DNA of 64,000 nt, taken from positions 8,804,001 to 8,868,000 of the forward strand of contig NZ_CP011533.1 of assembly GCF_001704275.1 (NCBI RefSeq), written 5' to 3'. The notes beneath the pieces were generated by a model, which did no database searches, was not told where the DNA came from, and saw nothing but the letters and a program-made list of their open reading frames with translations. Source of the DNA: Streptomyces noursei ATCC 11455. GTDB lineage: Bacteria; Actinomycetota; Actinomycetes; Streptomycetales; Streptomycetaceae. The translations under genes were made by a program, and so were the position numbers. Below are positions 35,753 to 44,758 of this stretch, piece after piece (position 1 is the stretch's first letter; each line of letters opens with the position of its first letter).

Positions 35753-36130
35753 TCACCGTTCGGTGCCGGCCGGCGTCACGTGTTTGGTGTAGGCCGCGTC
35801 GAGATCGCGGACCTCGACGGAGGCGTGCACGGTCAGCTGCGTCGCCGCTGCCGTGTGGGCGCGTACCAGGTCCAGCACCGCCTGGCCGAGTGCGGTCTTG
35901 GTCTCCGTGGTGCGGCCCGGCAGGATCGCGAAGTCCACGTGGATCAGGGCCTGTTGGGGAGCGTCATGGGCGATGACCACCTCCTCGACGCAGCGGAAGC
36001 GGGTCTTGCAGCTGTCGATGGTGATGCCGTCGACGGTCTTCGCGGCGAGCGCGTGCAGCTCGTGCGCGAAGCGGCGGGTGTCCAGGAACTCGCGCAGGGT
36101 CGCGTCGTGGTCGACGAGGATGTGCGGCAT
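35753..36130 (-). CDS. CHMI-type tautomerase (5-carboxymethyl-2-hydroxymuconate isomerase family)
   Basis: 125 residues starting MPHILVDHD, with Pro2 as the expected catalytic base of the tautomerase superfamily. FRCVEEVVIAHDAPQQALIHVDFAIL and GRTTETKTALGQAVLDLV follow the CHMI (HpaF) pattern. ATG 36130 has AAGGAG 7 nt upstream. It is last in the strand order after prephenate dehydrogenase (62-bp gap). No homoprotocatechuate genes are near, so in this setting it might tautomerise an arylpyruvate such as 4-hydroxyphenylpyruvate. That role is inference. Confidence 0.78.
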   Translation of the reverse strand: MPHILVDHDATLREFLDTRRFAHELHALAAKTVDGITIDSCKTRFRCVEEVVIAHDAPQQALIHVDFAILPGRTTETKTALGQAVLDLVRAHTAAATQLTVHASVEVRDLDAAYTKHVTPAGTER

Positions 36131-36191
36131 GGGGATCTCCTTCCGAGGGGGCGGGTGGGGAGTGGCGCGGACGGATGCCGTGGCTGGGGCG

Positions 36192-37304
36192 TCAGCGGAC
36201 CGCCCAGCCGCGGTTGCGGAGGGCTTCGGTGAGCGGGCGTGCCACGTCCGGGGCGACCTTGAGCCGCACGGAGCCGGACGGGGCCGACGGGGACCGGGGG
36301 CCCGGAATGGTCGCGCCCTCCAGGTCGAGCCCTTCCAGGTGCAGTTGCGCCTCGTCCACGTCGTCGAGAAGCCGGGCGAGCGGCCGGCCGTGGTCGCCGA
36401 GGGCGACCGAGAGCACGGTGTGGGGGTGTGCCGCGGTGCCGCCGTACGACGGCGCGATGCGGGCACGCCCCTCGACGCCGCGGCGCAGCAGCGCCGTCAG
36501 GTCCGCCAGTGCGTCGGCCGTGGCGTCCGGCTCCCGGTCGGCGGCGGACAGGCGGGACAGGGCGTGCGCGGCGGTCGCCAGGTCCGCGCTGAGCTCGGTC
36601 AGGAGCGGGGTGAGGGCGGCGGCGTTGGCGGCGAGGATGTCGGCCCAGAGCCCGGCGTCGCCGGACGCGACCCGGGTGGCGTGGCCCATGCCGCGCCCGG
36701 CGAGCCGGACCGCGTACTCCTCGCCGTCCCGCAGCCGGGCGGCGGTGAGCGCCGCCATGAGGTGGGGGAGGTGGGAGACCAGGGCCACGGCGCGGTCGTG
36801 GTCGGGCGGATCCAGCAGCACCGGTACGGCGCCGCAGAGCGAGACGAGTTCCAGCGCGCGGTTGAGGGCGGACTCACGGGTCTCCGGGGTGGGGGTGAGC
36901 ACCCAGTGGTGGTCCTGGAAGAGGTCGGCGCGGGCCGCGAGCGGGCCGGAGCGTTCCCGGCCGGCCAGCGGGTGCCCGCCGATCAGGGTGGTGGTGTCGC
37001 AGCCGAGGGCCAGGCACTCGGCGTGCGGCAGGGCCTTGACGCTCGCCACGTCGGTGTAGACGCGGGCCAGTCCGGCCTTCTGGTGGTCGGCGAGGGCCCG
37101 GGCGGTGTGCGACGGCGGGACGGCGATGACGGCGACGTCCACCGGTTCGGACGGGGGCCCGGGGATGCCGGCGCCGCGCGCGGCGGCGATCCGGACGCGG
37201 TCGGGATCGTGGTCGATCAGATGGGTGGTCACTCCGCGCGCGGTCAGTGCCAGGGCGATGGAGGTACCGATGAGACCGGTGCCGACGACTGCGGCGGTGT
37301 CCAA
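36192..37304 (-). CDS. tyrA: Prephenate dehydrogenase
   Basis: 370 residues. The NAD-binding VVGTGLIGTSIALAL is at the N-terminus. VYTDVASVKALP, IGGHPLAGRERSG and LVSHLPHLMAAL (catalytic His) follow, and an ACT-like C-terminal segment (VLSVALGDHGRPLARLLDDV) may bind an aromatic amino acid. It converts prephenate to 4-hydroxyphenylpyruvate. The frame starts at TTG 37304, preceded by GAGGAG. It lies directly downstream of the hydroxyphenylglycine genes, where it would boost precursor supply; a hairpin at 37361 separates it from eamA. Confidence 0.93.
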   Translation of the reverse strand: MDTAAVVGTGLIGTSIALALTARGVTTHLIDHDPDRVRIAAARGAGIPGPPSEPVDVAVIAVPPSHTARALADHQKAGLARVYTDVASVKALPHAECLALGCDTTTLIGGHPLAGRERSGPLAARADLFQDHHWVLTPTPETRESALNRALELVSLCGAVPVLLDPPDHDRAVALVSHLPHLMAALTAARLRDGEEYAVRLAGRGMGHATRVASGDAGLWADILAANAAALTPLLTELSADLATAAHALSRLSAADREPDATADALADLTALLRRGVEGRARIAPSYGGTAAHPHTVLSVALGDHGRPLARLLDDVDEAQLHLEGLDLEGATIPGPRSPSAPSGSVRLKVAPDVARPLTEALRNRGWAVR

Positions 37305-37360
37305 GGTGGCGCTCCTCGGCCGTGAGGGGGAGGGTGGCGGAGCAGGGCGGTGTTGCGGGT

Positions 37361-37402
37361 GTCCCGGGCCCGGCCGGGACGGCGGACGGGCGGGCCCGGG
37401 AC
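37361..37402 (-). terminator. Hairpin between the exporter and prephenate dehydrogenase genes
   Basis: GTCCCGGGCCC (37361-37371) pairs perfectly with 37392-37402, 15 bp past the exporter stop. It could be a terminator or partial attenuator within the larger gene run. No clear promoter for prephenate dehydrogenase follows. Confidence 0.55.
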
Positions 37403-37416
37403 GGTCGGTGCGCGGT

Positions 37417-38355
37417 TCAGCGGTCGGCCGGGGCCGGTGCCGCGGGCTCCTGGGCCGGAGCCGGTCTGCCGGTCACCCGCCGGACCAGCGACGGGTTGAC
37501 GACCATCACGAGGTTGCCGAGGAGGATCAGCGCGACGCCCGCCAGGTCCCGGGCCGTCCAGGTGAACTTCTCGAAGACCGTGGACAGCAGCAGCGCCACG
37601 ATCGGGAAGAGCACCATCGCGTAGGCGGCGCGCTCACCGCCGATCCTGCCGAGCAGGGTGAGATAGGCGCCGAAGCCCACCACCGACCCGAAGACGGCGA
37701 GATAGAGCAGTGAGCCGGTGTACTTCAGGGTGGGCTGGAACAGCGCGCCGCCCCCGAAGATCGCGGCGAACGGGGCCATCAGCAGCGCCCCGTACGCCAT
37801 GGCGTAGCCGGTGCCCTGTACCACCGGGATGCCCGCCGCCTGGGTCTTGCCGGAGACCACGTTGCCCAGGCAGAAGACCAGGGTGCCGATCACCGAGAGG
37901 ACGACGCCCTGGCCCGAACCGGAGGACAGGCCGAAGTTCTGGAACTCCGGCCAGAACACCGTGACGATCCCCAACAGCCCGACGGCCCCGCCGACCAGCA
38001 TCTTCGCGGTGATGGTGCGCCGGAAGAAGACCCGGGCGAAGACCATGTTCACCAACAGGGACATGGCGAAGATGATCGACACCAGTCCGGTGGTCAGATG
38101 CTGTTCGGCGAAGTAGAAGCAGACGAAGTTGGTGGAGAACATCAGCGCGCCCATGAGGACGAACTGGCCGTGCACCCGCAGCGGATAGCGCAGCGGCAAC
38201 CCCCGCAACCGGGCCCAGGCCAGCAGGATCACGGCGGCCAGCGCGAAGCGGTAGGCGATCGATGCCGTGGGGTGCACGTCCCCCAACTGCCCCTTGATGG
38301 CCAGCCAGGTGGAGCCCCAGATCAACACCGTCACGACATACAGGACGGCGTTCAT
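37417..38355 (-). CDS. EamA/DMT-family transporter
   Basis: 312 residues with ten membrane helices in two EamA repeats. It starts VLYVVTVLIWGSTWLAIKGQ with the typical WGST motif; repeat two begins near YAMAYGALLMAPFAAIFGGG. The protein ends with a short cytoplasmic Pro/Ala tail. ATG 38355 overlaps the aminotransferase stop by 4 bp, so it belongs to the same translationally coupled set. The family exports amino acids and metabolites. Context suggests efflux of 4-hydroxyphenylglycine or its oxidised derivative. Confidence 0.9.
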   Translation of the reverse strand: MNAVLYVVTVLIWGSTWLAIKGQLGDVHPTASIAYRFALAAVILLAWARLRGLPLRYPLRVHGQFVLMGALMFSTNFVCFYFAEQHLTTGLVSIIFAMSLLVNMVFARVFFRRTITAKMLVGGAVGLLGIVTVFWPEFQNFGLSSGSGQGVVLSVIGTLVFCLGNVVSGKTQAAGIPVVQGTGYAMAYGALLMAPFAAIFGGGALFQPTLKYTGSLLYLAVFGSVVGFGAYLTLLGRIGGERAAYAMVLFPIVALLLSTVFEKFTWTARDLAGVALILLGNLVMVVNPSLVRRVTGRPAPAQEPAAPAPADR

Positions 38356-39671
38356 CCGCAGCTCCGTTCCAGCAGCCCGGCCAGTCGGCGGGCGCCCTCG
38401 GCCACTTGATCCGGCGTCAAATAGCTGAGGGAGAGGCGCATTTGGTGACGGCCGCCGTCACCCTCGGGATAGAAGTAGCTCATCGGTGTCCAGATCACTC
38501 CGTGCTCGCGGGCGGACTCTTCCAGCAGTGCATTGTCCGCCGGAACCGGGAGGTTCAGGGTGAGGAAGAAGCCACCCGCCGGAGAGTTCCAGCTGATTCC
38601 GGCCGCCTCGCGCCGGTCCCGGGGCAGCAGCCGGTCGAGGTTGTCGAGCAGGATCCGCAGGTTGGACTGGTAGAAGTCGGCGGCGGGCTTGTTGGCCTCC
38701 CGCAGCCGGTAGTCGTGGCTGACCAGCATGCCGCCGATGACCGCCTGGCTGAGCGCCGGGGTGTTCACCGTCACCATGCCCTTGATCTTCGACAGTTCGT
38801 CGGCCAGCAGGGTGCGGCTGCCGTCCGGGGCCTGAACCTGCTGGTCGGCGATCACATAGCCGACCCGGGCACCGGGGAAGCAGGTCTTGGCGAACGAACC
38901 GAGATAGATCACCCGTTGCCGGTCGTCCAGCGCCTTGAGCGTGGGCAGGCCGCTGCCCGTCGGCGTGAAGAACCCGTACGGGTTGTCCTCCAGGACGAGC
39001 AGGTCCTCGGCGTCCGCCGCTGCCAGCAGCCGGCGGCGCCCGGCGACCGGCAGACAGGTGCCGGTCGGGTTGGAGAAGTCGGGCACCACGTAGAAGGCCC
39101 GCGGACGCTTCCCGGCGGCGCGCAGCTCGGCGACCGTCCGCCGCAGGACGTCCGGATCACACCCCTCCGGGCCCTCCGGGACGTGCACGGTCTCGATGTC
39201 CAGCAGCCGGGCGGCGCCGGTGATGCCGACGTAGCACGGCGAGGAGACCAGCAGGACGTCCGCGGGGTCGGCGAACAGGGCGCGCAGGACGAGGAACATC
39301 CCCTCCTGGGCGCCCACCGTGACCACCAGGGACTCCGGATCGGCGGTGATGCCCTCGTCGTTGCGCAGGGCGCGGGCGACCAGTTCGTGGATCTGGCCGT
39401 TGGTGCGCCCGTACTGGAAGAGCAGGGTGCGGACCTGGTCCGGGGAGCAGCCGCGCTCCTCGGTGAGGTACCGCTGGTAGGCGGTGAGGTAGTCGCCGAT
39501 CTGCTCGACCTCGAAGAGCCCCTCGTACGGGCGGCCGGGGCCGAAGGAGATCGCCTCCGGGTAGCGGGAGGTGACCTCGTTGAGGAAGTTCATCACCTCC
39601 ATCAGCGGATCGGCGAGCGAACCGTGCAGGCCCTGGGCCGGCAGCACGGTGGTGGGAGGTTCCTGGCTCAC
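38352..39671 (-). CDS. hpgT: HpgT-like PLP aminotransferase
   Basis: 439 residues, fold type I aminotransferase. ISFGPGRPYEG, LFQYGRTNGQ and VTVGAQEGMFLVLRAL appear first. NPTGTCLP, LVLEDNPYGFF and the PLP lysine in LGSFAKTCFPGARVGYV follow, and near the end SPAGGFFLTLNLP and MRLSLSYL. GTG 39671 overlaps the dioxygenase stop by 4 bp (GTGA). Between hydroxymandelate oxidase and the exporter, its expected job is transamination of 4-hydroxyphenylglyoxylate to L-4-hydroxyphenylglycine, with an amino donor such as tyrosine that returns 4-hydroxyphenylpyruvate to the cycle. Confidence 0.85.
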   Translation of the reverse strand: MSQEPPTTVLPAQGLHGSLADPLMEVMNFLNEVTSRYPEAISFGPGRPYEGLFEVEQIGDYLTAYQRYLTEERGCSPDQVRTLLFQYGRTNGQIHELVARALRNDEGITADPESLVVTVGAQEGMFLVLRALFADPADVLLVSSPCYVGITGAARLLDIETVHVPEGPEGCDPDVLRRTVAELRAAGKRPRAFYVVPDFSNPTGTCLPVAGRRRLLAAADAEDLLVLEDNPYGFFTPTGSGLPTLKALDDRQRVIYLGSFAKTCFPGARVGYVIADQQVQAPDGSRTLLADELSKIKGMVTVNTPALSQAVIGGMLVSHDYRLREANKPAADFYQSNLRILLDNLDRLLPRDRREAAGISWNSPAGGFFLTLNLPVPADNALLEESAREHGVIWTPMSYFYPEGDGGRHQMRLSLSYLTPDQVAEGARRLAGLLERSCG

Positions 39672-40594
39672 CTGGCGTCCTCCCACAGGACCGGGCAGAA
39701 GTCCGGGTCGGTGTAGTCGGGGTTGCCGCCCGCGTCCTTCCGGACGAGCACGTCGTTGTTGTAGACCACCAGGTCGCCGCCGGACAGCTGGTAGGGGCGC
39801 CACTGGTTGGTGCGGTCCTGGAGGTGGAGGGAGATGGCGCGGCGGGGCCGGTCGCTGACGTTGTAGCCGCTGCCGTGGTAGGTGCGGCAGTGGTGGAAGC
39901 TGATGTGTCCCTTGGGGATGGTCACGGGCACCTTGCGGACCTCCGCGTTGTTGAAGGCGGCGTTCTCCGCAAGCATGTCCTCAAGTTCGGAACGGTCGCG
40001 ATCGGCGAAGTGGCGACTGGTGGAATCGTCGCCGCCGGTCTCCTTCCAACGGTGGCTGCCGTCCACCATCGTGATGGTCCCCATCTCCTCACCGCAGTCG
40101 TGGAAGGGGATGAAGGCGGTGAGCATCTCGTCGGAGGAGCAGGTCTGCCAGTAGTGGCGGTCGAAGTGCCAGGGCACGATGTTGCGCTCGTCGTCCATCC
40201 GCTGCGGCTTGTGGATCAGGGTGCTGTTCCACAGCCGTATCTGGCCGGTCTGCGCGATCCGCGCCGCGACCGCCGCGATGAGCGGCTTGGAGAGGATGGA
40301 GCGGATGGTGTCGTCCTCGTAGAAGATGTAGTCGTTGTGCCGGTGCACATCGCCCTTCTCCGGTTCCCAGTAGGCCAGCCGCGGCGGGCGGGTCGGCAGG
40401 GTGCGGTCCCGGTGGCCGGCATAGAAGCGGTCGGCCGCGGAGTCCAGCAGATCGACCTCCTCGTCGGTGAGCAGCTTCTTGGACAGGTACCAGCCGTGCT
40501 CCTGGTAGAACCGCACCTCCTCTTCGGTCGGCAGCAGTTCCTGCTCGGCGGGGGTCAGCGTGAAGCGGGTGTCGTTCGGCGCGGTGTCGGTCAT
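39668..40594 (-). CDS. Phytanoyl-CoA dioxygenase-family Fe(II)/2OG oxygenase
   Basis: 308 residues. The PhyH-fold iron ligands are visible: HxD in VPWHFDRHYWQT (residues ~150-160), the distal His in HHCRTYHGSGYN, and the 2-oxoglutarate Arg in SDRPRRAISLHLQ. GWYLSKKLLTDEEVDLLDSA is a typical PhyH N-terminal segment. ATG 40594 overlaps the hydroxymandelate oxidase stop by 4 bp, so it is part of the cassette and not a bystander. Standard 4-hydroxyphenylglycine pathways have no such enzyme. It may hydroxylate or otherwise oxidise an intermediate or the final amino acid; the substrate cannot be read from sequence. Confidence 0.88.
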   Translation of the reverse strand: MTDTAPNDTRFTLTPAEQELLPTEEEVRFYQEHGWYLSKKLLTDEEVDLLDSAADRFYAGHRDRTLPTRPPRLAYWEPEKGDVHRHNDYIFYEDDTIRSILSKPLIAAVAARIAQTGQIRLWNSTLIHKPQRMDDERNIVPWHFDRHYWQTCSSDEMLTAFIPFHDCGEEMGTITMVDGSHRWKETGGDDSTSRHFADRDRSELEDMLAENAAFNNAEVRKVPVTIPKGHISFHHCRTYHGSGYNVSDRPRRAISLHLQDRTNQWRPYQLSGGDLVVYNNDVLVRKDAGGNPDYTDPDFCPVLWEDAR

Positions 40595-41751
40595 GCCAGT
40601 TCCCTGTCGTCGTCGGTGAGGTGGGGGGAAAGGTGTGCGGAGCGGTGGAGCAGGTCCGGGGCGATCGCGTCGAGGCGGGGCCGGCCGGTCAGTGCCATCG
40701 CCTCTTCCAGTTCTTCCCGGAGGGCGGACAGGACCTGCGTGGCGCCGGCCTCGCCGTCGACGGCCAGGCCCCACAGGACGGGACGACCGACCAGGACCGC
40801 GCGGGCCCCGAGCGCCAGTGCCTTGAGCACGTCGCTCCCGCGGCGGACGCCGCCGTCGACGAGCACGTCGCACCGGTCGCCGGCCGCCGCGACGACCTCC
40901 GGGAGTGCCTCCAACGCCGGTACGGCACCGTCGAGTTGGCGTCCGCCGTGGGTGGAGACGATCAGGCCCGCCACCCCGAGTCCGGCCGCCCGTCGGGCGT
41001 CCTCCGCGGTCAGGACGCCCTTGAGCACCAGTGGCAGATCGGTCAGCGACCGCAGCCACGCCAGGTCGTCCCAGGTGAACGCGGCGTCGTGGTGCCGGGC
41101 GGCGTGTGCGGCGAGCGTGGAGCTGCCGGAACTGCCCTGGTACAGCCCGGGATCGTGGTCCTCGTCGAAGTTGGCGGGGCGGATGTGCGGGGGCAGACGG
41201 AAGCCGTTGCGCAGATCCCGCTCCCGACGGGCCATCCGCGGGGTGTCGACGGTGACCACCAGGGCCTGGTAGCCGGCGGCCTCGGCCCGGCGCACCAGGG
41301 ACGCGGTGACCTCCCGGTGGCGCATCACGTACAGCTGGAGCCACAGCGGTCCGGCGGCGGCCCCCGCGATCTCCTCCAGCGAGATGCTGGAGAAGGTGCT
41401 GGCGATGGTGAGCGCGCCCACCGTGCCGGCCGCGCGCACGGTGGCGGTCTCACCGTCCGGGTGGACCAGCTGGTGGTAGGCCATGGGCGCGATGCCCACC
41501 GGAAACGCCACCGGACGGCCGAGCAGGGTGGTCGCCGTGTCGCAGCGGGAGACGTCGACCAGGGCGCGGGGGCGCAGTCGGTAGCGGTCGTAGGCCGCAC
41601 GGTCCTCGCGCAGGGTGACCTCGTCGCCGCTGCCGCCGGCGATGTAGTCCCACACCGGCCGGTCGAGCCGGGCGCGGGCCGCCGAGGCGTAGTCCCGCGG
41701 GTTCAGCAGCAGTTCGGGTCGGGTGGCGCGGGAGGCGGTCGGCGCGGTCAC
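40591..41751 (-). CDS. hmo: 4-hydroxymandelate oxidase (FMN-dependent alpha-hydroxyacid oxidase)
   Basis: 386 residues. FMN alpha-hydroxyacid oxidase marks: WDYIAGGSGDEVTLREDRAA, PVAFPVGIAPMAYHQLVHPD, TVDTPRMARRERDLRNGFRL, PLVLKGVLTAEDARRA and the active-site His in VSTHGGRQLDG, with DGGVRRGSDVLKAL for phosphate binding. GTG 41751 overlaps the hydroxymandelate synthase stop by 4 bp. Given the neighbour it should oxidise 4-hydroxymandelate to 4-hydroxyphenylglyoxylate. Confidence 0.92.
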   Translation of the reverse strand: MTAPTASRATRPELLLNPRDYASAARARLDRPVWDYIAGGSGDEVTLREDRAAYDRYRLRPRALVDVSRCDTATTLLGRPVAFPVGIAPMAYHQLVHPDGETATVRAAGTVGALTIASTFSSISLEEIAGAAAGPLWLQLYVMRHREVTASLVRRAEAAGYQALVVTVDTPRMARRERDLRNGFRLPPHIRPANFDEDHDPGLYQGSSGSSTLAAHAARHHDAAFTWDDLAWLRSLTDLPLVLKGVLTAEDARRAAGLGVAGLIVSTHGGRQLDGAVPALEALPEVVAAAGDRCDVLVDGGVRRGSDVLKALALGARAVLVGRPVLWGLAVDGEAGATQVLSALREELEEAMALTGRPRLDAIAPDLLHRSAHLSPHLTDDDRELA

Positions 41752-42845
41752 CCGCCGACCCTCGCCGCGGCGCCCGCCGGTACGGCGGTGTCGGCGCGCT
41801 CCCGCTCGACGGCCTCGTAGAGGGCCTTGATGTTGCCGCTGCCGAAGGTGCGGGCGTCGAGCCGCTGGATCAGCTCGAAGAACACCGTGCGGCGGGCGTA
41901 GGGGGAGCGGGTGAAGACCTGCACCAGCTGGCCCCACTCGTCCCGGTCGGCCAGCAGGCCGAGGTCCTGGAGGACCGCCGGGTCGATGCCCACCTCGATG
42001 CCGCGCGCGGCCAGCGAGGCGTAGTAGCCGGCCGGGGTGGAGAGCAACTCCACGCCGGAACCGCGGAGTTCGCGGGCGGCGGTGACGATGTCGTCGGTGC
42101 CGTAGGCGACGTGCTGGACGCCCGGGCCGTCGAAGCCGTCGAGGAAGTCGTTGAGCTGTCCGCGGTTGCTGGTCGGGTCGGGCTCCACCATGGTGAAGGT
42201 GATGCCCCGGGTCGCGTCCTGGACGACCTTGGAGGCCATGGCCTGGCCGCCGACGACGATGTACTCGTCGTAGGTGTGCTTCAGGCCGAGCGCGCGCCCG
42301 TAGAAGTCGACCATGGTGTCCAGCGAGCCGGGGCGCAGGCACATGGCGAGGTGGTCGACGGAGCGCAGCAGCCCGGGGTCGGGCGCTCCGTCGTCGACGG
42401 GCAGGTACCGCTGCGGCAGGAACGCCCCTTCGGGGTCGTCGCGTTGGACGAAGGTGTGCACCAGGTCGTTGGTCGCGGCGATGGTGGCCCGGACGACCCG
42501 GCCGCCGGCGTCCTCGAACGTCTCGGGCTCGGACACCGCGTCGGCGCCCGCGGCCACCGCGGCCGCGAAGTCGCCGGCCGCGTCGGTGGACCGCAGGGCC
42601 ACGTCCCGCACGCCGTCGCCGTGCTTGCGGACGAAGTGCGAGGCGGCGTGGTCGGCGTGCAGGGCCGAGGTCAGCACCAGGCGGACCCCGCCGTGGGCCA
42701 GGACCAGCGAGCGGGCGCCGGCGAGCCCGGTGAGCGGGCCGGCCTCGGCCACCACACGGAATCCGTAGGTGCCGCAGTAGTAGTGGGATGCCTGGTTGAC
42801 GTCTCCGACGAAGAACTCGACGTGGTCGACGGAATGGGCGGTCAC
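41748..42845 (-). CDS. hmaS: 4-hydroxymandelate synthase
   Basis: 365 residues, two vicinal-oxygen-chelate domains. The Fe(II) ligands are expected at His in HSVDHVEFFV-like and VDHLAMCL segments and at Glu in RRTVFFELIQRL. FGSGNIKALYEAVERER closes the protein. The fold is shared with 4-hydroxyphenylpyruvate dioxygenase; coupling to hydroxymandelate oxidase and an HpgT-like gene, and the C-terminal RTFGSGNIKALYEA pattern, favour mandelate synthase. It turns 4-hydroxyphenylpyruvate into 4-hydroxymandelate. GTG 42845 has only a weak GAGAG site. Confidence 0.9.
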   Translation of the reverse strand: MTAHSVDHVEFFVGDVNQASHYYCGTYGFRVVAEAGPLTGLAGARSLVLAHGGVRLVLTSALHADHAASHFVRKHGDGVRDVALRSTDAAGDFAAAVAAGADAVSEPETFEDAGGRVVRATIAATNDLVHTFVQRDDPEGAFLPQRYLPVDDGAPDPGLLRSVDHLAMCLRPGSLDTMVDFYGRALGLKHTYDEYIVVGGQAMASKVVQDATRGITFTMVEPDPTSNRGQLNDFLDGFDGPGVQHVAYGTDDIVTAARELRGSGVELLSTPAGYYASLAARGIEVGIDPAVLQDLGLLADRDEWGQLVQVFTRSPYARRTVFFELIQRLDARTFGSGNIKALYEAVERERADTAVPAGAAARVGG

Positions 42846-42928: not shown

Positions 42929-43645
42929 TCAGGGCGAGGGGTTCGCCGGTGTCCCCGCCGCTTCGGCGAGGGCCCGGAAGACGTAGCAGGCCGAGGTGGC
43001 GCCGGGATCCTGGTGGCCGATGCTGCGCAGCCCCAGGTAGGAGGCCCGGCCCTTCCGGGCCTGGAGCGGGATGGTGGCCTGCATGCCGGCCTCGGCGGCC
43101 TGGGCCGCGGCGCACGCGGCGGCGGGCAGGCCGGCGCCGGCCTCCGCGGCGGCCCTGAAGGCGCCGATCGCGGGGGAGCAGGCATCGATCATGGTCTTGT
43201 CGCCGGGCACCGCCGCGCCCAGGCGCTGCATGGTGGCCAGCGCGGCGGTGAGGCCGGCGGCGAACCGGCGGGTGCCGACCTCGGGTTCGGTGCCGAGGGC
43301 CGCTCCCAGTGTGCGGAAGGCGCCCCCGTACAACGGCCCGGAGGCGCCTCCGACGGTGGAGATCAGCGTCTCGCCCGCGGTGAACAGTGCCGCGCCGGGC
43401 GAGGTAGGCGGTTGTGACGGGGCGTCGAGGGCGACGCGCACCGCCCTGAAGCCACGAGCCATGTTGGCCCCGTGATCCCCGTCCCCGATGGCGGAGTCGA
43501 GGCGGATGAGGTGGTCCTGATGCTGATGCATGGCCGTGCTGACACACCGCAGCCAGGCGAGAACGAGGGGGTGGTCCAGCGCGTCCCGGCCGGGCGCATC
43601 CGCACGGCCGTGTAACGTGCCGCGGTCCCTCTCAGGCTCCCGCAT
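42929..43645 (-). CDS. dhaL: Dihydroxyacetone kinase subunit DhaL
   Basis: 238 residues. Nucleotide/Mg-binding DSAIGDGDHGANMARGF with the Asp cluster (residues ~50-66), then ISTVGGASGPLYGGAFRTLG and SYLGLRSIGHQDPGATSACY. An N-terminal ~25-residue extension is unusual. ATG 43645 has GAAGGAG 7 nt upstream. DhaL binds ADP/ATP and passes phosphate from DhaM to the substrate held by DhaK; no dhaK is present in the window. It lies on the same strand between the IclR gene and the hydroxyphenylglycine cassette. Confidence 0.9.
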   Translation of the reverse strand: MREPERDRGTLHGRADAPGRDALDHPLVLAWLRCVSTAMHQHQDHLIRLDSAIGDGDHGANMARGFRAVRVALDAPSQPPTSPGAALFTAGETLISTVGGASGPLYGGAFRTLGAALGTEPEVGTRRFAAGLTAALATMQRLGAAVPGDKTMIDACSPAIGAFRAAAEAGAGLPAAACAAAQAAEAGMQATIPLQARKGRASYLGLRSIGHQDPGATSACYVFRALAEAAGTPANPSP

Positions 43646-43981
43646 GGCAGGTGCTCCTTCGATCCCCCGTGCCGCAGCAATCGACGGCTACTGGATTACC
43701 AACGCATTACCGAAAGGCGTTCGGCATTACCGAATGCCGATAGGAAGCAAAACGCAGTGCCCCCGGTTGCGTCAAGGTTTTCCCGTACAAGCGAGCGGAG
43801 GCTTAACGGATCGGAAGGTGAACGACGGCCGGTGGAAGGCGAGTTGGTGAATCAGGGGTGACGTGGGGGAGCGGCGGGCCCGGGTGGGGTGGAGCGGCCG
43901 GGTGGGCGTCGATCGGGTGCGCCCCGCCGGCTGTCGGCCCCGCGGCCCGTGTCCGGTGGCCCGTTCACCCGGCGTACGAGC
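43646..43981. promoter_or_regulatory. dhaL upstream region with repeated ATTACC boxes and palindrome
   Basis: 336 bp without a gene. It holds three related boxes, GATTACC (43694), CATTACCG (43705) and CATTACCG (43725). The last is inside a perfect 7+4+7 palindrome, CGGCATT-ACCG-AATGCCG (43722-43739). On the minus strand a TTGACG hexamer occurs near 43770. The boxes are AT-rich against the background and lie 50-95 bp before the dhaL start, a good place for the IclR protein to bind. Confidence 0.65.
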
Positions 43982-44758
43982 TCAATTGCAGGCCCGCAGG
44001 CCGGCGTTGCGCGGAGCGCCGAGATCCCTCGACAGGCTGCGCGCGACCTCGCGCACCGAAATGGCGTGTTCCTGGCGTGCGTTTTCGGCCAACAGTCTCT
44101 CGATCGGGCCCACCAGCCCCAGTCCGCCGACCACCTCACCGGTGCGGTCGAAGACCGGCGCCGCGATCCCCGCGTCACCGAGCGTCAACTCGTTCTCATC
44201 CACCGCGTACCCGGTCTCCCGCACCCGGTCCAACTGCGCCTGGAGTTCCGCCGGGTCGTCGAGACTGGAGCCGGTGACCCGCGGCAACTCGCCCGTCAGC
44301 AGTGCGGTGCGGCGTTCGGCGGGCAGGAAGGCGGCGATCGCCTTGCCCAGCGCGCAGGCGTTCCACGGCAGACTGGCCCCCGTCTCCAGCACCTGCATCG
44401 CCCCACCGGGCCGGAACGCATGGTGCACCACCAGCACATGACTGTCCGTCAGAATGCCGGTCCAGACGGCCGCGTCCGCCTGGGCGGCGAGCCGGTCGGC
44501 CCAGGTCGCCGCGCGAGTGCGCAGCTCGTGCGAGTCCAGGTAGGCGTTGCCCAGCGTCACCAGGCCAGGCCCCAGTTGGTACTTGCCGGACTCGCGGTCC
44601 TGGACGACCAGCCCCTCCGCCTCCAGGGTGCGCAGCAGCGCGTGGGCGGTCGGCTTGGCGACTCCGATCCGGTCGGCCAGTTCCGTCACGCCCAACCGCG
44701 GGGTCGCCGTGGCGAGTTCCCGCAGCACATGGATCGCCCTGTGCACCGCCTGGACCAT
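43982..44758 (-). CDS. IclR-family transcriptional regulator
   Basis: 258 residues. HTH: AVHRAIHVLRELATATPRLG, VTELADRIGVAKPTAHALLR. Effector domain: LPWNACALGKAIAAFLP, TGYAVDENELTLGDAGIAAP and VGGLGLVGPIERL. ATG 44758 has GGAGCGG upstream. It stands between divergent dhaM and downstream dhaL plus the hydroxyphenylglycine cassette. Related dyads occur on both sides (43722 and 44784), so it probably controls both. Confidence 0.93.
   Translation of the reverse strand: MVQAVHRAIHVLRELATATPRLGVTELADRIGVAKPTAHALLRTLEAEGLVVQDRESGKYQLGPGLVTLGNAYLDSHELRTRAATWADRLAAQADAAVWTGILTDSHVLVVHHAFRPGGAMQVLETGASLPWNACALGKAIAAFLPAERRTALLTGELPRVTGSSLDDPAELQAQLDRVRETGYAVDENELTLGDAGIAAPVFDRTGEVVGGLGLVGPIERLLAENARQEHAISVREVARSLSRDLGAPRNAGLRACN

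Follow-up and report, generated by a model that had tools for sequence, protein, structure and literature searches.

A compact biosynthetic cassette of Streptomyces noursei ATCC 11455, carried in a 64,000-nucleotide stretch of the complete 9.8-Mb genome (positions 8,804,001-8,868,000 of contig NZ_CP011533.1, hereafter the window), has in our judgement about an even chance of being a self-contained pathway whose product, exported as well in loci of the window type, is an oxidised arylglycine and not plain L-4-hydroxyphenylglycine (Hpg). All of its genes lie on the minus strand. Its core consists of genes for a 4-hydroxymandelate synthase (HmaS, 41748..42845), an FMN-dependent alpha-hydroxyacid oxidase that is probably a 4-hydroxymandelate oxidase (HMO, 40591..41751), an Fe(II)/2-oxoglutarate (2OG) oxygenase of the PhyH family (39668..40594), an HpgT-like pyridoxal phosphate-dependent aminotransferase (38352..39671) and an exporter of the EamA/DMT family (37417..38355), chained to each other by four overlaps of 4 bp; a prephenate dehydrogenase gene (PDH, 36192..37304) follows after a gap of 112 bp. 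An earlier note on this DNA had placed the HmaS, HMO, HpgT-like, EamA and PDH genes where the Pfam and NCBIfam matches now find them, and had rightly set the exporter in the chain, through its overlap with the HpgT-like gene. Its statement that each of the first five genes overlaps the next by 4 bp holds for the first four, the fifth, EamA, being the one set apart from PDH. The third gene of the chain, for the PhyH-family oxygenase, was left unnamed there; we regard it as the signature enzyme of the cassette. Of 12 window-type relatives examined (L086-L096 and L082 in our numbering), 11 preserve the four overlaps and one, L094, three of them, a recurrence that makes the chain more than a product of chance. 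Streptomyces noursei A-2-1 (L086) has counterparts of all nine cassette proteins, at 95-100% identity.

As judged from their sequences, PDH, HmaS, HMO and HpgT most likely build the arylglycine skeleton. The nearest solved relatives of the window's HmaS are the chains 3zgj and 2r5v, which we take to be the HmaS of S. coelicolor and of Amycolatopsis (the PDB title of 3zgj is 4-hydroxyphenylpyruvic acid dioxygenase), and both carry the HmaS residue pattern. The window protein reads TFTMVEP and GNIKAL, as against PLNEP and GNFKAL in the genome's own 4-hydroxyphenylpyruvate dioxygenase (HPPD; at 5.844 Mb, 40% identical); the residues that presumably discriminate the two enzymes are the Pro and Asn of PLNEP, replaced in HmaS, and the Phe of GNFKAL, changed to Ile. 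This signature supports HmaS over HPPD, and speaks against the ordinary homogentisate-forming dioxygenase that the earlier note had raised as the alternative. Both patterns are present in 69 of 85 PhyH-linked rows, with ten more showing the first while the second was not found, five only the second, and one a Val in place of the Ile. For the HpgT-like protein (Pfam Aminotran_1_2) the comparison was with eight hand-picked HpgT loci that lack PhyH, all eight of which carry HmaS, HMO and peptide synthetase adenylation (A) domains within about 20 kb: the window protein is 55-59% identical to HpgT beside HmaS and HMO in all eight, the next paralogue in its own genome being 34% identical. PDH matches Pfam PDH_N and PDH_C and, above cut-off, the NCBIfam prephenate dehydrogenase subfamily NF005112. 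The FMN oxidase matches Pfam FMN_dh, and it is gene context that decides for 4-hydroxymandelate as its probable substrate.

The case for a further oxidation rests on PhyH and its tie to HmaS. The oxygenase matches Pfam PhyH, and its residues H143, D145, H240 and R251 (the HxD...H iron ligands and the 2OG-binding arginine) are shared by at least 97% of the 84 HmaS-linked sequences. Used as query against 295 genomes of the same genus, the window PhyH gave 26 matches in 24 genomes, its own included; from a wider species collection it pulled 119 loci, of which 80 were kept (the named loci), and these with one plasmid locus and 25 others make up a set of 106, partly redundant since at least 11 genomes are counted twice. 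HmaS adjoins PhyH or lies one gene off in every one of the 80 named loci, and in 103 of the 106 it is near PhyH, always on the same strand. Micromonospora lupini (L120:8912-10909) has HmaS and PhyH in a single open frame of 665 amino acids, the sole fusion among the 106 loci; that gene is followed by genes for a DUF3050 protein and for the alpha and beta chains of an E1 dehydrogenase. PhyH relatives on plasmids of Planktothrix, Paraburkholderia and Burkholderia (35-43% identical) offered no hint of function, and in the three records read, of four, HmaS was absent from the gene annotation.

In the HmaS tree the PhyH-linked rows are scattered, with L045, L047, L048 and L133 falling among the controls linked to nonribosomal peptide synthetases (NRPSs), though the tree has several long branches and carries a warning of false joins. 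The pairing of HmaS with PhyH thus seems to have been assembled more than once, or the partners to have been swapped, and repeated assembly or exchange of this kind favours a functional tie. Since the PhyH-linked HmaS proteins do not form one clade, we gave up the idea that the whole set descends vertically from one origin.

The earlier note's observation that no NRPS is in view was borne out for A and condensation (C) domains: the window has no PF00501 or PF00668 match, carrier domains not having been searched for separately. Searches for A domains gave no match in the window, at the plasmid locus L082 or in the flanking DNA (about 10 kb) fetched for 20 named loci (L086-L104 and L133); wider flanks of G090, G194 and G219 (about 38-50 kb on each side) and of G175 (26 kb to the contig end, and about 45 kb) were likewise free of full A domains. 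An Hpg-specific A domain just outside the block in related strains, which the note would have counted against its reading, appeared in none of the flanks or wider stretches read. The recurrence of the same gene order with no A domains nearby makes it likely that the product is made without an NRPS.

In the pathway we propose, PDH would convert prephenate to 4-hydroxyphenylpyruvate, from which HmaS would form 4-hydroxymandelate; HMO would oxidise this to 4-hydroxyphenylglyoxylate, to be aminated by HpgT. This C8 skeleton would also be oxidised by PhyH; the mandelate stage is the likeliest, because the oxygenase gene is paired or fused with that of HmaS. The final amino acid would then be an oxidised Hpg, its ring hydroxylated or dearomatised. 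EamA would then carry the product out, with a regulator of the IclR family, described below, controlling the unit.

Several observations weigh against this scheme. NCBIfam names the window's HmaS an HPPD, and among the eight NRPS-linked control HmaS rows only three show both residue patterns, one having the first alone and four neither, so that the patterns must be narrower than the HmaS family. Scores do not separate HMO from lactate and glycolate oxidases, which match slightly better (2e-104 for lactate oxidase, with two copies in one chain, and 1e-99 for glycolate oxidase, as compared with 2e-93 for the 4-hydroxymandelate oxidase 5zzp). In G089 (L195:18714-20033) an HpgT with 77% identity to that of the window stands by itself amid apparently unrelated genes, and the 40 kb read contain no HmaS, HMO or PhyH match. 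The three PhyH loci without HmaS (L049-L051) carry more distant PhyH proteins, 40-60% identical, and PhyH could act on something else altogether. No match to the window's EamA lies within the fetched flanks of 66 of the 80 named loci, so that free export is at most the feature of one branch. Finally, the separation from NRPSs in relatives is not uniform: it holds for the G090, G175, G194 and G219 stretches, but in G146, read over about 38-50 kb on each side, NRPS A domains begin 12 kb away; their codes are DPFRVGGVY, DVYVIAGIL, DALWLGGVF and DASDVGLVD, none of them that for Hpg, and there is one weak partial match besides.

HmaS and PhyH occur together in at least five architectures among the 80 named loci (free-standing, with ATP-grasp ligases, with ketosynthase and acyl carrier protein (ACP) genes, and others). 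The window type, A, accounts for 11 loci; outside the named set, a window-type operon was also seen on the 616-kb plasmid record of Streptomyces angustmyceticus (L082, NZ_CP104318.1), with an ISL3 transposase nearby. Type A' accounts for six (L097-L101 and L104), and has LuxR, HmaS-HMO-PhyH-HpgT-PDH, an alcohol dehydrogenase, and PhzF-like, MFS and RidA-like genes, conserved in all six, the RidA-like label being our own reading of the sequence with no profile match behind it. S. nigrescens HEK616 and NRRL S-337 carry both A and A'. A bare five-gene set, HmaS-HMO-PhyH-HpgT-EamA, is found in three loci, in one of which (L133) the HmaS belongs to a different branch of its tree.

The larger architectures bring in genes for further assembly. 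Type B (ten loci, all Streptomyces) has ligase, ACP and ketosynthase genes, and seven of the ten match two more genes that we take as CreE- and CreD-like; in a type B relative, L036, the CreD-like protein is a nitrosuccinate lyase above the curated cut-off, and the FAD enzyme matches no NCBIfam model. These two genes stand beside HmaS-PhyH-PDH in L036 (5083-6525) and other type B loci, which suggests, from sequence, nitrous-acid or diazo chemistry. Type C (three loci) has ATP-grasp ligases and a luciferase-like monooxygenase. Seven loci (L106, L109, L112, L034, L035, L037 and L040, with two genomes counted twice) join HmaS-HMO-PhyH-HpgT-PDH to ATP-grasp ligases, three of them in most, with a luciferase-like monooxygenase and usually an MFS transporter; these ATP-grasp loci are possibly non-NRPS peptide clusters. 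Type E is the largest class (46 loci, between L111 and L165), mainly from Micromonosporaceae and recurring in many species of Micromonospora, Catellatospora and Dactylosporangium; it has ligases, ACP and ketosynthases, and in each of the six genomes checked HMO and HpgT are neighbours, on the contig that carries PhyH and about 13-16 kb away from it. The one remaining named locus is a short contig. In types B, C and E, PhyH is 64-71% identical to that of the window and HmaS only 41-49%.

These arrangements allow a broader reading, which we advance tentatively and would not expect to hold in full: that HmaS and PhyH form a recurrent two-enzyme unit making a new, possibly dearomatised arylglycine, which the window operon would secrete as a free antimetabolite and other actinobacteria would feed into ATP-grasp, ketosynthase/ACP or NRPS pathways. 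They also bear on the suggestion that the oxidised arylglycine is an intermediate, from which a larger product would be built by a ligase or synthetase whose gene lies elsewhere in the genome. The presence of related HmaS-PhyH sets beside ATP-grasp ligases, beside ketosynthase, ACP and ligase genes, or near NRPS genes, speaks for such a fate, yet no partner of the kind is conserved beside the window-type or bare five-gene loci, and the exporter sits within the same operon; we consider it rather unlikely for the window.

The earlier note had proposed that the free amino acid, or a modified form of it, is itself secreted. The part of this that calls for a non-NRPS product agrees with what we find, and the modified form remains within its terms; plain free Hpg is unsupported, given PhyH in the operon. 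Secretion of L-4-hydroxyphenylglycine as such, with PhyH a side or supporting enzyme, would account for the three known Hpg steps, the precursor supply and the exporter, all of which the cassette contains. It leaves unexplained why PhyH should lie inside the chain of 4-bp overlaps, why it should be the enzyme most like the window's in distant architectures, and why it should so regularly accompany HmaS. Nor does Hpg synthesis itself need PhyH: HpgT is found in 108 of the 295 genomes of the genus set and PhyH in 24, so most Hpg pathways of the genus do without it. In the same set HpgT lies within 20 kb of 22 of the 26 PhyH matches (in G183 the two are on different contigs, and three matches have no HpgT at all). 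The secretion of plain Hpg is accordingly quite unlikely in our estimation, and a further oxidised product the likelier one, since the operon includes PhyH, an enzyme that keeps company with HmaS in 103 of 106 loci and is fused to it in one.

An ordinary Hpg supply operon serving an NRPS of the genome in trans can draw on the 20 condensation-domain matches found at 2.87-2.89, 8.31, 8.41-8.43, 9.04-9.05 and 9.16 Mb, of which the closest to the cassette is some 198 kb distant. Of the genome's 65 PF00501 matches every one was fetched save three short ones; about a dozen distant ligases among them gave a partial specificity code or none, and among the 19 NRPS-type A domains of the complete genome with a readable code not one has the code for Hpg. 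That count is to be read with the controls in mind, since the method gave one clear Hpg code in the eight control loci (DVFHLGLLC, which we take to be the Hpg code; a second domain reads DMFHMGLVW, a code close to it), and codes may have been missed or fall outside the stretch. For the same reason little weight attaches to the type-D loci near NRPSs, where the canonical Hpg code was found in none of 11 A-domain matches (one of them not NRPS-type). Taking the C-domain and A-domain searches together with the specificity codes, we rejected supply in trans as very improbable.

The remaining genes bear on export and control. EamA (two stretches matching the Pfam EamA family) has a counterpart in 14 of the 80 named loci, and we infer that it exports the pathway product. 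Upstream of the core lie genes for a DhaL-like (Dak2) protein (42929..43645; Pfam Dak2, with NCBIfam DhaL above cut-off) and the IclR-family transcriptional regulator (43982..44758; Pfam HTH_IclR and IclR_C), the latter in the same position in many window-type relatives. A 15-bp palindrome, TTCGGTAATGCCGAA (43720..43734, minus strand), stands upstream of dhaL, and the pattern TTCGGnAnTGCCGAA recurs there in all 11 dhaL-bearing loci, the window included. Its distance to dhaL is about 90 bp in the window and in the loci closest to it, and reaches about 350 bp elsewhere. The palindrome occurs once in the window and in none of 100 shuffles, and it is likely to be an IclR operator. Downstream, next to PDH, is a gene for a CHMI-like tautomerase (35753..36130; Pfam CHMI), also found in eight of the 11 named window-type relatives. 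DhaL is present in 9 of 12 window-type relatives, and DhaL and IclR are part of the same block in many. Being absent from some window-type loci, DhaL, IclR and CHMI would be accessory to the pathway. A reactive, non-aromatic product would be in keeping with the window's tautomerase and with the PhzF-like isomerase and the RidA-like gene found in the related A' cassettes. A degradative or benzoate-forming role, in which 4-hydroxymandelate would undergo oxidation and decarboxylation and the CHMI-like gene would be a sign of aromatic ring breakdown, has in its favour that family name, the common control of aromatic catabolism by IclR regulators and the precedent of CloR, an iron oxygenase acting on a hydroxymandelate, and is nevertheless highly unlikely given that the unit contains HpgT and a biosynthetic-type PDH, that a Pfam scan of ten window genes showed no ring-cleavage enzyme, and that CHMI is lacking in three of the 11 named window-type relatives.

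Hpg is known as a feedstock of peptide antibiotics, and a conserved NRPS-free operon with an exporter of its own and an unassigned oxygenase suggests a natural product that is a free amino acid and that genome mining centred on peptides would overlook. The HmaS-PhyH pair also offers a search handle for further gene-cluster families in Streptomyces, Micromonospora, Dactylosporangium and Catellatospora. In the open literature, which leaves out most subscription journals, we found no description of this gene set, nothing on phytanoyl-CoA dioxygenase together with hydroxymandelate and no paper on the biosynthesis of forphenicine. Forphenicine and anticapsin are free amino-acid antimetabolites, and the proposed product would share with them its small size, its modified amino-acid structure and an assembly that needs no large peptide synthetase, a likeness of product type. 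The closest solved relatives of PhyH are tailoring oxygenases of the SnoK/SnoN type (E values of 1e-10 to 1e-12 over about 180-245 residues), which share its family and, in the alignment, its iron-site histidines, but differ in pathway and substrate. The phenylglycine (pgl) operon of pristinamycin producers is likewise a short arylglycine operon with an HpgT-like aminotransferase; it reaches the glyoxylate by a different route, and its product feeds an NRPS. Closest of all in enzymology is the HmaS-HMO-HpgT pathway to Hpg of the glycopeptide, CDA and nocardicin-type clusters, which uses the same three enzyme families, often with a prephenate dehydrogenase as well; the cassette described here differs in lacking an NRPS partner, in having a PhyH oxygenase gene placed between those for HMO and HpgT, and in bringing an exporter and regulator of its own.

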